14,029 nt of DNA, from NCBI GenBank assembly GCA_020061285.1, contig JAGUYQ010000046.1, positions 1-14,029 of the forward strand. Direction: 5' to 3'. Of this stretch, positions 3,134 through 10,421 are shown piece after piece; the first letter of the stretch is position 1; every line of letters begins with the position of its first letter. This DNA comes from Betaproteobacteria bacterium (GTDB lineage Bacteria; Pseudomonadota; Gammaproteobacteria; Burkholderiales; UBA9220). The notes under the pieces are model-generated. The model ran no database searches and was not told where the DNA came from. It saw only the letters and a list, made by a program, of their open reading frames with translations. The translations under genes were made by a program, and so were the position numbers.

Positions 3134-3204
3134 TGTATCGTCACCCTCAAACAGGCATGTGCGCCCTATTTTGGCTTACGCCTTGAATTCTCTCTCGTGG
3201 CTTC

Positions 3205-3256
3205 GGCACGCGGCCAGCGTGCCAGGGAGCGCAGCGGACCAAGCCGACTGCGCCCC
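3205..3256 (-). promoter_or_regulatory. Tandem hairpins in the dsrC-dsrM gap
   Basis: Two adjacent stems can form in the minus-strand RNA after dsrC. The first pairs 3248-3256 with 3226-3234 (9 bp, one G-U), with CGG/CCG pairing possible inside its loop. The second pairs GGCACGC with GCGTGCC (3217-3223 with 3205-3211), a perfect 7-bp stem with a 5-base loop. No T-tract follows. DsrC is known to be needed in larger amounts than its neighbours in sulfur oxidisers, so a stability or partial-termination element after dsrC is plausible, but this is inference. Confidence 0.55.
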
Positions 3257-3274
3257 TCCGGTACGGCTAAAGGC

Positions 3275-5918: not shown

Positions 5919-7220
5919 TTAGGCAGTCTTGGAAGCCTGACGCTCGTTCCACTTGGCCACTTCCTCGTCCCAGCCGTCCATGCGGACATAGGGGTTGGTA
6001 CGGGGATGCTGGATCATGGACGGATCGATTTCGAGACCGACGCCTTCCAGGAAGTTGACCAGGCCGATACGCTCGATCATCTCGCCGGTGCGCTCGTGCT
6101 CCAGGGCGTTTTCGGCGAAGAAGTCGATGAAGCTGCCGGCCAGTTCCACCAGGGCCTCGAAGTCCTCGTCGCTTTCCAGCTTCATGAACGGAACCACCAC
6201 GGTACCCATCAAGTCGCCGATCTTCAGGGTGCGCTTGCCGCCCACCAGGATGGTCGCGCCCTTGTCGTTGCCGGGAGCCAGGGCGCCGGTCATGACGTTG
6301 ACGCAGTGCATGCAGCGCACGCAGTCGCCGTTGTTGATTTCCAGGGACTGGCTATCGTCGATGGCCACGGAGGAAATCTTGGCACCCTTGGACACTTCGG
6401 CGGTCTTCTTCAGAGTGATGGCACGGGTGGGGCAGCGGGAAACCACGTCGTTCACCAGCTCGTTCATGCCGTGCTTGGCGAACCACTTCTTGGCCAAGGC
6501 TTCGTCGGTCTGCATGTTGTCGCGCCAGGTGCCGATCACGGCCATATCGGCGCGTTGCACGGCGTTGGAGCAATCATTGGGGCAGCCGGAGAACTTGAAC
6601 TTGAACTTGTAGGGCAGGGCCGGACGGTGCATTTCGTCCAGGTAGGCGTTCACGGTCTCGCGCATGGCCCTGCCTTCGTCGTAGCAGGACTGCTCGCAAC
6701 GGGCGGCACCGACGCAAGCGGTGGAAGTGCGCACAGCGGGACCGGCGCCACCAAGGTCAAAACCCATTTCGTTGAACTCGTCAAAGGCGGGCTGCACGCC
6801 TTCGGTGGTGATGCCCTGGAACATGATGTCGCCGGACTGGCCATGGAGGGCGATCAGGCCGGAACCATGCTTTTGCCAGATGTCGCACATCTTGCGCAGG
6901 GTCTTGGTATCGTAGTGCATACCGGCCGCGGGCATGATGCGCAGGGTGTGGAATGCAGCGGCAGCGGGGAACAGGGGCTGCTCGTGCTCGTCCTTGAGTT
7001 CGGTGAAACGGGGAATCACGCCGCCGCCATAACCCAGCACGCCGACGGTACCGCCCTTCCAGTAACCCTTCTTGGTCTTGTAGGACGTTTCCAGTTGACC
7101 CAGCAGGTCAACCATCATGTCATTCTCGTTAGCCAGGCGCTTGAGGCCGGTCACAAAGCTGGGCCACGGGCCCTTTTCCAGCTCGTCAAGATTTGGCGTA
7201 TCGTACATTTTCTTAGCCAT
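5919..7220 (-). CDS. dsrA: DsrA, reverse dissimilatory sulfite reductase alpha subunit
   Basis: DsrA is the catalytic alpha subunit of siroheme sulfite reductase. The 433-aa protein has the Cx5C and Cx3C pair that binds the 4Fe-4S cluster coupled to siroheme (Cys169, Cys175, Cys213, Cys217; ACVGAARC and SGCPNDC). A ferredoxin domain follows, with Cys263 and CVRCMHC at 300-306. The ATG at 7220 is preceded by AGGAGA; an in-frame TTG at 7238 would put the ribosome-binding site inside the gene, so I rejected it. It is the first gene of the dsr operon. The 440-base region upstream holds a terminator-like hairpin and a palindrome that may control it. Confidence 0.98.
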   Translation of the reverse strand: MAKKMYDTPNLDELEKGPWPSFVTGLKRLANENDMMVDLLGQLETSYKTKKGYWKGGTVGVLGYGGGVIPRFTELKDEHEQPLFPAAAAFHTLRIMPAAGMHYDTKTLRKMCDIWQKHGSGLIALHGQSGDIMFQGITTEGVQPAFDEFNEMGFDLGGAGPAVRTSTACVGAARCEQSCYDEGRAMRETVNAYLDEMHRPALPYKFKFKFSGCPNDCSNAVQRADMAVIGTWRDNMQTDEALAKKWFAKHGMNELVNDVVSRCPTRAITLKKTAEVSKGAKISSVAIDDSQSLEINNGDCVRCMHCVNVMTGALAPGNDKGATILVGGKRTLKIGDLMGTVVVPFMKLESDEDFEALVELAGSFIDFFAENALEHERTGEMIERIGLVNFLEGVGLEIDPSMIQHPRTNPYVRMDGWDEEVAKWNERQASKTA

Positions 7221-7279
7221 AGCGGTTTCTCCTAACAAAATTTTTGCGGTTACGTGATCCTGGTATGCCAGTCCTGCCG

Positions 7280-7312
7280 GGCCCGCTGCATCACTAGTTT
7301 TAGCAGCCGGCC
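7280..7312 (-). promoter_or_regulatory. Stem-loop in the dsrA leader
   Basis: Bases 7303-7312 and 7280-7289 form an inverted repeat (GGCC plus GCTGC arms, nine of ten pairs with one central mismatch) around a 13-base A/T-richer loop. It ends about 60 bases before the dsrA start codon. If the dsrA transcript starts upstream of it, the stem is in the 5' leader; otherwise it could be a protein-binding site near the promoter. I cannot tell which. Confidence 0.4.
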
Positions 7313-7372
7313 ATCACCCCTCGTCGAGCCGCCTCGTAGAACGGCCCGTCTTTTTCGGCCCACGGCGCGGAG

Positions 7373-7408
7373 AAAAAAATCCCTCGGCTGCCTGTTGACC
7401 AACCGAGG
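7373..7408 (-). terminator. Intrinsic terminator or attenuator upstream of dsrA, pointing toward dsrA
   Basis: On the minus strand CCTCGGTTG (7400-7408) pairs with CAGCCGAGG (7382-7390) in a 9-bp stem with one G-U pair and a 9-base loop. After G and A come seven T residues (7373-7379). This is a textbook intrinsic terminator and works only for transcription running leftward. No gene to its right in the window is on the minus strand, so it cannot end an ordinary gene. It either attenuates a dsrA leader transcript or insulates dsr from antisense transcription out of the divergent operon. It lies 153-188 bases upstream of the dsrA start. Confidence 0.75.
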
Positions 7409-7449
7409 AACTCCCGATGTCCCGCGCACCAGACCGGACACTTTCACGT

Positions 7450-7460
7450 ATCCTAGTCAA
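7450..7460 (-). promoter_or_regulatory. Weak candidate -10 region for a dsr leader transcript
   Basis: On the minus strand this stretch reads TTGACTAGGAT. TAGGAT at 7450-7455 could be a -10 element for an activator-dependent promoter, because the palindrome at 7479-7497 would then be centred about 45 bases upstream of the start, a usual place for an activator. There is no good -35 box. If real, the terminator at 7373-7408 would lie inside the leader. This is a guess from spacing. Confidence 0.2.
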
Positions 7461-7478
7461 ATAGCGCCCTCTCTGCAT

Positions 7479-7497
7479 ACTACCCATATGGGGTAGT
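7479..7497. promoter_or_regulatory. 19-bp palindrome, candidate operator between the divergent operons
   Basis: The sequence ACTACCCATATGGGGTAGT has perfect 7-base inverted arms around a 5-base centre. The core TACCCAT / TGGGGTA resembles the TACYNMT-type half-sites bound by NarL/FixJ-family response regulators, though the half-site spacing is one base rather than the usual two. It lies 259 bases upstream of dsrA and about 40-60 bases upstream of the plus-strand promoter at 7536-7563, so it could serve either direction. The palindrome is seen; the binding protein is inferred. Confidence 0.5.
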
Positions 7498-7535
7498 GCC
7501 GGCTTATCAAAAAAGGCTATCACCACCTCAGACCA

Positions 7536-7563
7536 TTGAAGAGCGGGCTGCCATGGTTATAAT
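7536..7563 (+). promoter_or_regulatory. Sigma70-type promoter for the divergent plus-strand operon
   Basis: TTGAAG (7536-7541) and TATAAT (7558-7563, a perfect -10) are separated by 16 bases. The expected start near 7570 gives a leader of about 90 bases before the ATG at 7662. This is the best promoter match I found in the window. Confidence 0.6.
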
Positions 7564-7567
7564 TCCC

Positions 7568-7643
7568 AAACCGACATGATAGTGACGAATTCCTATCTAG
7601 GCCAATACCCCTACTGGAGTATGCACTCCGGAACACACGGTTT
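7568..7643 (+). promoter_or_regulatory. Possible structured 5' leader of the plus-strand operon
   Basis: AAACCG (7568-7573), at the predicted transcript start, is complementary to CGGTTT (7638-7643) just before the ribosome-binding region. Between them GGAGT (7616-7620) and ACTCC (7625-7629) form a small hairpin with loop ATGC. The two together could fold most of the leader. The arms are short and chance pairing is possible. Confidence 0.25.
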
Positions 7644-7661
7644 AGAAAAGGCATTGCATAT

Positions 7662-7886
7662 ATGGATCAGGCAAACTCTCTGGACAAGTTCACCGGCCCT
7701 TTCGGCGGCCAGGAGATCGAATTGCAAAGCATCGACCACGAGGCCGGCTTCACCTCCCTGCGCCTGCGCATCCGGGAAGGCAAGCGATTCACTATTTTCG
7801 ACATCGACAAAATGACCGCCGAGCGCTGGGCGCGGACCATGCTGGAATGGGCCCAGCAGCAAAAAGACCTCGGACCCGCCGAATGA
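7662..7886 (+). CDS. Small uncharacterised protein (74 aa), first gene of the divergent operon
   Basis: I do not recognise this protein with confidence. It is 74 aa, without cysteines, without a signal peptide or membrane segment. The middle looks like a beta-rich segment (EIELQSIDHEAGFTSLRLRI, then KRFTIFDIDKM) and the C-terminus an amphipathic helix (AERWARTMLEWAQQQ). It is probably cytoplasmic. Support for its being a gene: a good promoter upstream, AAAAGG about ten bases before the ATG, GC-biased third positions like the neighbours, and a 4-base ATGA overlap with the next gene. The overlap suggests a coupled pair with the Cas6-like protein, for instance as a binding partner, but no function can be assigned. 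Confidence 0.8.
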   Translation: MDQANSLDKFTGPFGGQEIELQSIDHEAGFTSLRLRIREGKRFTIFDIDKMTAERWARTMLEWAQQQKDLGPAE

Positions 7887-8524
7887 CCAACGAATACTGG
7901 CCCGCCACGGACGACACTCCCGTCGTCGCCTCGTCGGTTGACGTGGTATTCCACCTCGACGGGCGGGAAATCCCCTTCGACCACGGCCATCTGCTGTGGG
8001 CCGAAATCGTCCGCGTCCTGCCCCGGTTGGCGGAAAAAACGGACATCGGGGTGCACCCCATCCGCGGCTCGGTGACGGAGAACCATACCATCATCCTGTC
8101 GCGGCGGGCCAACCTCGCCATCCGCGTCAAGCGGGAAGACGCCGGGGAGTTGCAAGGCCTTGGCGGCGCCACCTTGAACCTGGGCGGCTACAGCGTCACC
8201 GTCGGCGAATCCAAGACCAAGGAACTCGTGCCCTACGGCGCCATCCACGCCTACTACGTGACCACGGGCCACCGCGAGGAAGCCGACTTCGCCGCCGCCA
8301 TCCAGGAAGCGCTGAAGGAAAGGAACATCCCGTGCAGAATGGTGTGCGGCAAAGTGCACGTCCTGAAAACCGCAGGCGGAGAGGCCACATCCTACAGCCT
8401 GGCGTTGTACAATTTAACCGACGAGCAGTCCATCGCCATCCAGGAAACGGGGCTGGGACTGCATCGCGAACTGGGATGCGGGCTTTTCGTGCCCCACAAA
8501 TCCTTCGCCCCCGTGGGGGGATAG
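7883..8524 (+). CDS. Cas6/Cmx6-like RAMP-fold protein without a CRISPR array
   Basis: The 213-aa protein resembles the Cas6/Cmx6 family of CRISPR RNA-processing proteins. The N-terminus has the VDVVFHLDGREIPFDHGHLL pattern with histidines at 34 and 36, followed by VHPIRG. A middle SRRANLAIRV strand and a LNLGGYSVTVGESKTKELVP segment follow. The C-terminus has a glycine-rich loop with basic residues, GLGLHRELGCGLFVPHKSF (190-208), like the RNA-binding loop of RAMP proteins. Family assignment is from memory of such motifs and was not tested by a search. No CRISPR repeats or other cas genes are in the window. The ATG overlaps the stop of the upstream gene and has no clear ribosome-binding site, so translation is probably coupled. 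A role in binding or cutting dsr mRNA hairpins is inference. Loss of nuclease activity is possible. Confidence 0.7.
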   Translation: MTNEYWPATDDTPVVASSVDVVFHLDGREIPFDHGHLLWAEIVRVLPRLAEKTDIGVHPIRGSVTENHTIILSRRANLAIRVKREDAGELQGLGGATLNLGGYSVTVGESKTKELVPYGAIHAYYVTTGHREEADFAAAIQEALKERNIPCRMVCGKVHVLKTAGGEATSYSLALYNLTDEQSIAIQETGLGLHRELGCGLFVPHKSFAPVGG

Positions 8525-8589: not shown

Positions 8590-8922
8590 ATGGGTTACGT
8601 CGTAAATGGCGCCGAACTGGAAACTGACGAAGAAGGCTTCCTGGTGGAACCGGATTACAGCGACGATGTGCCGCCGGTGATCGCCGAAGCCGAAGGCCTC
8701 AAGCTCACCGACGAGCACTGGCTGGTGATCAACTACATGCGCGACAAATACAAGGAAGACGGCCAGACCCCCAACTTCCGCAACATGTGCAAGGATTTCG
8801 ACGAAGAGCATCCCGGCACCGACTGGAAAAAGCATCTCTACACCCTGTTCCCGATGCAGCCCAACCGCCAGTCCGCCAAGGTTGCCGGACTGCCGAAACC
8901 CTTCGGCAAGGGCGGCTACTAA
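8590..8922 (+). CDS. rspA: DsrC/TusE-family protein lacking both functional cysteines (RspA type)
   Basis: The 110-aa protein is clearly homologous to the DsrC at 3275-3607. It shares ETDEEGFLV, the DEHWLVINYMRDKY helix, the LYTLFP segment and the C-terminal VAGLPKPFG. Both functional cysteines are gone: the position of DsrC Cys98 is Ala96 (RQSAKVAG), and the penultimate cysteine is replaced by Lys107 in a GKGGY tail. Its only cysteine (Cys67) is elsewhere. It therefore cannot carry sulfur in the DsrC manner. DsrC-family members without either cysteine have been named RspA (regulatory sulfur-related), and DsrC itself has been reported to bind DNA upstream of dsr genes, so a regulatory role is plausible. 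A very good ribosome-binding site (AAGGAGG) suggests strong translation. A terminator follows. Confidence 0.9.
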   Translation: MGYVVNGAELETDEEGFLVEPDYSDDVPPVIAEAEGLKLTDEHWLVINYMRDKYKEDGQTPNFRNMCKDFDEEHPGTDWKKHLYTLFPMQPNRQSAKVAGLPKPFGKGGY

Positions 8923-8985: not shown

Positions 8986-9855
8986 ATGAAATTCACTACT
9001 CTCGTCAGCACCACCGAGCTCGCGGCCCATCTGGACGATCCGGAATGGATCGTGTTCGACTGCCGCACCACCCTGACCGATCCCGAGGCGGGACGCCGGG
9101 CTTATGCCCACGGCCACATTCCCGGCGCGCGCTACGCCCACCTGGACGAGGACCTGTCCTCCCCCATCACGGCAAGCACCGGCCGGCATCCCCTGCCCGA
9201 CCCGGACATCCTGGCGGAAAAACTGGGCCGATGGGGCGTCACCGCCGACACCCAGGTGGTGGCGTACGACGACAGCTTCGGCGCCATGGCGGTGCGCCTG
9301 TGGTGGCTGCTGCGCTGGCTCGGCCACGAGAAGGTCGCGCTGCTCGACGGCGGTTTCCCGAAATGGCACAACAAGGAACAACGGCCGATCACCGATACCC
9401 TGCCGGAAATCCACCCCGCCACCTTTCATGCCGCCCCCCACCGCGCCCTGTGGGCCGACGCCTCCCAGGTGGACGCCGCCCGCCAGGACGATCAGTGGAA
9501 GGTACTCGACGCCCGGCCCGAAATGCGCTTCACCGGCGACCGGGAGCCCCTGGACAAGGTGGCCGGCCACATCCCCGGCAGTTTCAACTGGCCCTTCGAG
9601 GAAAACCTCGACCTCGGCGGCACCTTTCTGCCCGCCGAGGAGCTGCGCGAAGCCTATCTCAACATCCTCGGCGACATTCCCCCCGGCCGCATCATCCACA
9701 GTTGCGGCTCAGGGGTCACCGCCTGTCACAACGTCCTGGCCATGGAGCACGCCGGCCTCTCCGGCTCCCTCCTCTACCCCGGCTCCTGGAGCGAGTGGAT
9801 CACCGATCCCGCGCGGCCGGTGGAAACCGGAGAAAGGGGATTGCTATGCGAATAA
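8986..9855 (+). CDS. Two-domain sulfurtransferase, 3-mercaptopyruvate sulfurtransferase type
   Basis: The 289-aa protein has two rhodanese domains (about 6-140 and 160-285). The C-terminal active loop is CGSGVTA with Cys240, the form typical of 3-mercaptopyruvate sulfurtransferases (SseA type) rather than the CRKGVT form of thiosulfate rhodanese. The inactive N-terminal domain shows the usual FDCRTTLTDPEAGRRAY and GHIPGARYAHLDEDLS motifs. It would transfer sulfur to a thiophilic acceptor in the cytoplasm. Next to dsr it could feed sulfane sulfur toward the relay, but a housekeeping role fits as well. A terminator sits 16 bases upstream of the ATG and I see no clear ribosome-binding site, so expression may be low or conditional. 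It overlaps the next gene by 10 bases. Confidence 0.92.
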   Translation: MKFTTLVSTTELAAHLDDPEWIVFDCRTTLTDPEAGRRAYAHGHIPGARYAHLDEDLSSPITASTGRHPLPDPDILAEKLGRWGVTADTQVVAYDDSFGAMAVRLWWLLRWLGHEKVALLDGGFPKWHNKEQRPITDTLPEIHPATFHAAPHRALWADASQVDAARQDDQWKVLDARPEMRFTGDREPLDKVAGHIPGSFNWPFEENLDLGGTFLPAEELREAYLNILGDIPPGRIIHSCGSGVTACHNVLAMEHAGLSGSLLYPGSWSEWITDPARPVETGERGLLCE

Positions 9856-10421
9856 AGACCCAATGGCACAACCAAGCCCACACCGGCGACAACTCCCAGT
9901 CCGCCAGCGTCGCGGCGCTCATCTGCTGGCGCCTGGCCTCCACCGCCATCGCCAACCTGCGCCAGGAAGACTACCGCATCACCGACCCGGCCCAAGGCTA
10001 CGCCATCATCGCGGAAATCCTCTACTTCCTGATCCAGCTTGCCGACCGCATGGCCTACGAGAAATTTCCCCTCAAACAGCGGACCGCCTTCGTCACCGCC
10101 CTGGCCAACCGGCTGGGTGAAATCCTCCATGACAACGTGCTCGACGTCCCCGGCGTGGACGTTTCCGCCGACTACAAGGGACAGTTCATCGCCCGCCTCA
10201 ACGAGCGGGCCGATGACTACGCCACTTTCGGTTATACTGAGGCCGGGCCGGATTTCGGTTTCGTCCGCTATCTCGGCCTGCGCATCATGGATCGGCTGCC
10301 GCAGCAGGACCGTAGCTGGATCGTTGACCAGATCATGGACATCGAGGTGCCGGAAATGGTCAAGACACTGAAAAAAGCCATAATCGAGCTTTTCCCGGAC
10401 AGCGGAGAATCCGAGGCCTGA
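9846..10421 (+). CDS. Uncharacterised all-helical protein (191 aa)
   Basis: I do not recognise this family. The 191-aa product has no signal peptide, and apart from Cys28 it has no cysteines. It looks like an all-helical cytoplasmic protein with several long amphipathic helices (for example SVAALICWRLASTAIANL, then YAIIAEILYFLIQLADRMAY) and an acidic C-terminus ending SGESEA. GAGAAAGGGGA lies just upstream of the ATG, inside the end of the sulfurtransferase gene, and the two genes overlap by 10 bases, so they are surely co-translated. The overlap links it to sulfur transfer or to a general thiol function; nothing in the sequence shows an enzyme active site. Confidence 0.8.
   Translation: MRIKTQWHNQAHTGDNSQSASVAALICWRLASTAIANLRQEDYRITDPAQGYAIIAEILYFLIQLADRMAYEKFPLKQRTAFVTALANRLGEILHDNVLDVPGVDVSADYKGQFIARLNERADDYATFGYTEAGPDFGFVRYLGLRIMDRLPQQDRSWIVDQIMDIEVPEMVKTLKKAIIELFPDSGESEA

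Follow-up and report, generated by a model that had tools for sequence, protein, structure and literature searches.

The window studied here, a 14,029-nucleotide stretch of contig JAGUYQ010000046.1 from a Betaproteobacteria bacterium (GCA_020061285.1), carries at 7883..8524 a gene whose product is a genuine Cas6-family protein that, by its context, lies outside any CRISPR-Cas system. The gene stands head-to-head with dsrA, the first gene of a dsr cluster, and its product most likely works on cellular RNA as an RNA-binding protein of the Cas6 type, serving sulfur oxidation by the reverse dissimilatory sulfite reductase (rDsr) pathway. The features of the locus are as follows.

7883..8524, plus strand: Cas6/Cmx6-family gene, 213 aa (ATG at 7883, stop ending at 8524), with His34 and the loop GLGLHRELGCGLFVPHK at residues 190-206
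7662..7886, plus strand: DUF6967 gene, 74 aa, directly before the Cas6 gene
5919..7238, minus strand: dsrA, the gene that opens the divergent reverse-dsr cluster
7239..7661: intergenic region separating dsrA from the divergent DUF6967 gene
7479..7497: operator-like palindrome ACTACCCATATGGGGTAGT, with an imperfect second copy at 7606-7621
3134..3274, minus strand: dsrC-dsrM gap with strong predicted hairpins
8590..8922, plus strand: DsrC-family paralogue with tail GKGGY and no C-terminal Cys
8986..9855, plus strand: rhodanese-type sulfurtransferase with two rhodanese stretches
9846..10421, plus strand: 191-aa uncharacterised protein, counted from a putative start (ATG 9846), which recurs in dsr loci

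This layout agrees with the original prediction, made from the sequence alone, which had placed a Cas6-like gene divergently from a dsr operon and overlapping a 74-aa gene. The Cas6 ATG overlaps the stop codon of the gene at 7662-7886 (ATGA overlap), and NCBIfam profiles identify the minus-strand dsr genes: dsrA, dsrB, dsrE, dsrF, dsrH and dsrK exceeded their cut-offs, DsrC exceeded that of TIGR03342, and DsrM was matched under its cut-off (174.9 of 300). A partial gene at the end of the cluster (3-770) is presumably dsrL. The presence of dsrEFH, and the organisms to which the named relatives belong, suggest that the cluster is of the reverse, oxidative type. The plus-strand string runs from DUF6967 through Cas6, the DsrC paralogue, the rhodanese protein and the 191-aa open reading frame to a PAS-type histidine kinase and a response regulator.

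Cas6 family membership and CRISPR context

The window protein far exceeded the curated cut-offs of the Cas6 family profiles (PF09559/TIGR02807), with scores of 147.3 bits against 98.85 and of 187.5 against 26.7, and its predicted structure has the tandem RRM-like domains of the Cas6 fold. Profile search and structure comparison thus both bear out the Cas6/Cmx6-like identity that had been proposed from motifs. The NCBIfam cut-off behind the name 'type I-MYXAN CRISPR-associated protein Cas6/Cmx6' was passed by the window protein and by 8/8 further members. With the type I-MYXAN Cas6/Cmx6 proteins proper (TIGR02807, PF09559; Gloeothece, Synechocystis and Nostoc plasmids) it shares family, length, a DH motif with His and the glycine-rich C-terminal loop. 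Those genes, however, sit in operons with cas3, cas8 or cmx8, cas5 and cas1, and one such locus (L083) has an array nearby, whereas the dsr-linked loci have neither these genes nor an array. The dsr-linked proteins form a branch separate from CRISPR-type Cmx6, with H205, E133 and G156 fixed. The Cas6 of type I-B CRISPR-associated transposons (CAST; PDB 8fcj, chain B) differs in being part of a transposon Cascade, and the genes identified in the window include no Cascade or transposon gene. The viral contigs searched yielded no relative.

A scan for arrays by exact 20-mers over 134 stretches found no CRISPR-like array in the window; it did recover the array of the positive control L083, and its only other hit was a tandem repeat in L116 (judged by eye). 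Likewise, blastp with MYXAN-type Cas references, drawn from three cyanobacterial plasmids only, found no adjacent cas gene in the window or in related stretches, many of which are only ~3.5 kb long.

Beyond the immediate neighbourhood, we counted copies of Cas1, cas3_core, DevR and PF09559 in the host genomes of 50 of 80 related loci. PF09559 was single-copy in 49 of the 50, the fiftieth having an additional fragment. A Cas1 match was present in 25 and missing from 25; among 20 further genomes, 7 had a match and 13 did not, the latter including three assemblies of 1.0-1.1 Mb. The cas3_core profile exceeded its cut-off in 19/50, and a weaker helicase-type match below the cut-off occurred in 50/50. 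The cognate DevR-type Cas7, the partner of Cmx6, was found in 0/50 host genomes of relatives. Absences here and in the genome samples below are soft, because many of the genomes are metagenome-assembled (MAGs) and completeness is given for none of them.

Association with dsrA across genomes

A survey of related loci, as the original prediction had suggested, showed the link between Cas6 and dsr to be widely conserved. From a scan of genome contigs the best 80 of 214 relatives were kept; dsrA was present at 72 of these loci, with the Cas6 gene divergent from it in 72/72, and DUF6967 likewise at 72/80. At five of the eight loci without dsrA (L006, L012, L026, L066, L078) the Cas6 gene lies near a contig end; at the other three (L041, L047, L080) there is no dsrA within 10 kb on either side. 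One locus with the usual Cas6 neighbourhood (L054) comes from a MAG record titled Bordetella parapertussis, a title that is probably wrong.

The association was tight in 274 genomes sampled from the class of Sulfurisoma, scored as dsrA-positive at a best E < 1e-30 with partial genes counted (94 genomes; 87/274 exceed the curated cut-off). PF09559 was found in 91 genomes: 87 had both genes, 4 Cas6 only, 7 dsrA only and 176 neither (Fisher p 1.9e-57, n=274, a value that overstates independence, the genomes being related). We take the hosts of this Cas6 branch to be mainly Gammaproteobacteria in the GTDB sense. Of the 91 Cas6 genes, 65 share a contig with dsrA at a distance of <6 kb, and every one of these is head-to-head with it; a single gene is 41 kb off, and for the other 25 the contig has no listed dsrA. 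Cas6 is retained away from dsrA in two assemblies of 1.4-1.6 Mb, at 41 kb in G159 (L121) and on another contig in G276 (L122).

In the four Cas6-only genomes (G117, G143, G177, G236) a contig end lies 0.9-2.3 kb from the gene, on the side where dsrA is expected, and in six of the dsrA-only genomes (G120, G129, G160, G173, G257, G288) the contig ends at or ≤1.9 kb upstream of dsrA; only G261 has >12 kb upstream of dsrA with no Cas6 gene there. Since 10/11 discordant genomes have a contig end nearby, a missing piece of assembly may account for them; as the partner gene is then absent from the assembly as a whole, such a loss is only a possibility. In a phylum-wide sample (n=398), PF09559 occurred in 5 genomes, all five dsrA-positive, and 48 other dsrA-positive genomes were without it. 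As the gene accompanies dsrA in 87/94 dsrA-positive genomes of the class sample, these 48 presumably belong mostly to other classes, and the association with Cas6 is therefore no general trait of dsr clusters.

Conserved residues, neighbouring proteins and candidate RNA targets

Residue conservation was assessed in 120 dsr-lineage proteins (131 less 11 repeated sequences) and in a CRISPR-type set of 123, made up of 120 listed of 524 proteins obtained with a cyanobacterial query and three plasmid loci, which covers less than the full diversity of Cmx6. The glycines of the loop (G190, G192, G198, G200) are present in 119-120/120 dsr-lineage proteins, and C199, H205 and K206 of the loop, together with R75, R81 and E133, show little or no variation. 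The CRISPR-type set has the loop glycines and the Cys too, but Pro prevails in it at position 133 and Ile at 156, and position 205 varies. As Cys199 occurs in 117/123 CRISPR-type Cmx6 proteins, it is no sulfur-specific trait.

His34 behaves differently. Being kept in 121/123 CRISPR-type proteins, it is the likely catalytic residue, an assignment we carry over from Cas6 enzymes. The window protein has it, as do 93/120 dsr-lineage proteins: 44/44 of the gammaproteobacterial type and 49/76 of the betaproteobacterial type, labels that follow the named loci in the same groups. One of the 27 proteins without it (L078) is poorly aligned. On a quick tree built without the His34 column and without that row, the state of this residue changed at least 11 times, at least 6 of them on well-supported branches. 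Because the His at the catalytic position is missing in 27/120, cleavage is probably dispensable in some members, although a different residue could replace it in catalysis. From these alignments, RNA binding appears to be conserved and cleavage to be optional.

The DsrC-family protein encoded after Cas6 (PF04358, E 2e-31) ends in GKGGY instead of xGC[VI]. It had been called cysteine-less, but one internal Cys is present (RNMCKDF); what it lacks is the C-terminal Cys of DsrC. DsrC paralogues without the C-terminal Cys are, we assume, those named RspA in the literature, and the window gene belongs with these RspA-type proteins, whose role is putative; the likeness concerns the neighbour, not Cas6 itself. 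Among 137 stretches (window included, some loci counted twice), 120 show a tail of KGGY or KAGY within 1.7 kb of Cas6, 15 have no DsrC paralogue within that distance and 2 have another tail. The idea that Cas6 and the DsrC paralogue form an obligatory pair was rejected. According to passages of two papers, dsrC homologues without the two C-terminal cysteines exist outside a dsr operon (PMC4287430), extra DsrC-like proteins have been noted (PMC5944118), and DsrC binds DNA upstream of the dsr cluster (as cited in PMC5944118).

For the DUF6967 protein, a sequence search against PDB gave nothing meaningful, and no Foldseek match of its model reached E 0.001. The structural list was headed by 14 rows of PUR-alpha, PC4-homologue, YdbC, SP_0782 and EF_3132 entries, several of them complexes with single-stranded DNA, which we take to be one fold group. 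The bbbba arrangement of the model is common to the PUR-alpha/PC4/YdbC nucleic-acid-binding proteins, so that the protein may tentatively be called PUR/PC4-like. Many gammaproteobacterial-type loci have a small gene before Cas6. Its membership in one family with DUF6967 was considered and rejected, as hhalign gave a probability of 13.7% and both are matched within the same clusters (L155, L157, L158, L159).

Pfam had no match for the 191-aa protein (9846-10421) or for several small neighbours. A protein of ~190-210 aa without a Pfam match recurs in dsr loci (the window; L118, 8045-8683; also a ~1.0 Mb assembly). Two further genes recur near dsrA, Cas6-free clusters included (L127, 10039-11115; L118, 10411-11238; L155; L157-L159): one for a TauD-type 2-oxoglutarate oxygenase and one of 60-105 aa (MLxLSEVLLQ...MDVKPPFxDTPxxWE).

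RNA structure was judged by minimum free energy against dinucleotide shuffles (40 per gap, 25 for the leader), with approximate gap ends, set by the first possible starts. No unusual structure was seen in the 200 nt preceding dsrA (median z -0.02, 9/72 below -2) or in the gap that separates Cas6 from the DsrC paralogue (-0.1, 8/83). Strong structure was found in the dsrC-dsrM (-2.37, 36/62) and dsrB-dsrE gaps (-2.38, 20/29), and less in the dsrA-dsrB gap (-1.47, 20/51). The stems of the dsrC-dsrM and dsrB-dsrE hairpins vary in sequence between lineages. Several Cas6-free dsr clusters have predicted hairpins in their dsr gaps too (by energies only, without shuffles), and a role of the dsrC-dsrM and dsrB-dsrE hairpins as Cas6-specific targets is accordingly not supported; perhaps they act as mRNA stabilisers or attenuators and so raise the level of dsrC. 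The original prediction of an orphan Cas6-type protein tied to dsr thus stands as to family, CRISPR-free context and a conserved tie, and is not supported as to its proposed target, the hairpins of the dsr leader and gaps, the leader not being unusually structured and the structured gaps forming predicted hairpins in several clusters without Cas6 as well.

No Rfam family was matched at gathering cut-offs, and no leader motif common to the inspected clades was seen by eye. Immediately before dsrA, the window, L001 and L002 have a conserved stretch with a short hairpin (CTGG-CATA-CCAG). The palindrome pattern TACYC-N4-7-GRGTA, written after the window was seen, occurs upstream of dsrA in 31/72 loci, where 0.34 sites are expected in all (mononucleotide shuffles), and had no match in the gammaproteobacterial-type loci of that set. 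Its shape, as we see it, resembles operators of the CsoR/CstR type.

Interpretation and significance

Family, predicted fold, the divergent place beside dsrA, co-occurrence with dsrA in the class sample and the lack of CRISPR genes in many hosts were all obtained directly. On this basis we consider it probable, if well short of certain, that the protein represents a CRISPR-independent Cas6 branch dedicated to rDsr, which binds a cellular RNA hairpin and controls rDsr-related transcripts. The glycine-rich loop would bind one particular cellular hairpin, the overlapping DUF6967 protein would be a nucleic-acid-binding partner of Cas6, and binding would determine how stable rDsr-related transcripts are or how they are translated, the DsrC paralogue downstream being a possible input of sulfur state. 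Cleavage would probably take place in lineages that keep His34, the window included, and would not be needed where it is missing. A further reading, which we put forward only tentatively, is a sulfur-status RNA switch: Cas6, DUF6967 and the DsrC paralogue lacking its C-terminal Cys would make up a ribonucleoprotein, and the state of the sulfur carrier would govern its binding of RNA.

Another reading, which we regard as doubtful, is that the Cas6 fold now serves as a protein-protein adaptor or sulfur-relay accessory and has given up acting on RNA. The repeated changes of the catalytic-position His would fit such a role, as would the sulfur-relay proteins next door (the DsrC paralogue and the rhodanese) and the fixed residues unlike those of CRISPR-type Cmx6 (E133 against Pro, G156 against Ile, H205 against a variable position), but the RNA-binding glycine loop is essentially invariant, the overlapping DUF6967 partner is tentatively PUR/PC4-like, and Cys199 is shared with CRISPR-type Cmx6. 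Less probable still is that Cas6 cleaves the dsrC-dsrM and dsrB-dsrE intercistronic hairpins and so sets different mRNA levels: both gaps are strongly structured, yet their stems vary between loci, Cas6-free clusters have predicted hairpins too, and His-less lineages retain both the Cas6 gene and the operon. That the protein works in trans for CRISPR arrays at other places in the genome, its dsr location being incidental, is very improbable: about half of the hosts have some Cas1 (25/50; 7/20), the Cas6 fold is kept and the window protein has its His, but the other half is without a Cas1 match, the cognate DevR/Cas7 is missing in 50/50, co-occurrence is with dsrA (87/91), place and orientation are fixed wherever Cas6 and dsrA adjoin, and the gene is kept in the three Cas1-free assemblies of 1.0-1.1 Mb (completeness not given).

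In open-licence papers (titles and abstract starts) we found no report of a Cas6 protein in dsr loci, passages of PMC10952691, PMC5944118, PMC8616872 and PMC4287430 mention no Cas6 gene there, and a search for 'Cmx6' among open-licence papers found only unrelated work. For the dsr-linked proteins the type I-MYXAN name is misleading, and it may mislead CRISPR surveys. To our knowledge, the regulation of rDsr sulfur oxidation is poorly understood, and the dsr-linked Cas6 branch would supply a concrete post-transcriptional candidate for it. It would also be an instance of a Cas6-family protein that a large bacterial group retains for a metabolic pathway, not for immunity. If the sulfur-status switch is true, a CRISPR-type RNA handler would be at the core of the post-transcriptional regulation of sulfur oxidation in bacteria.
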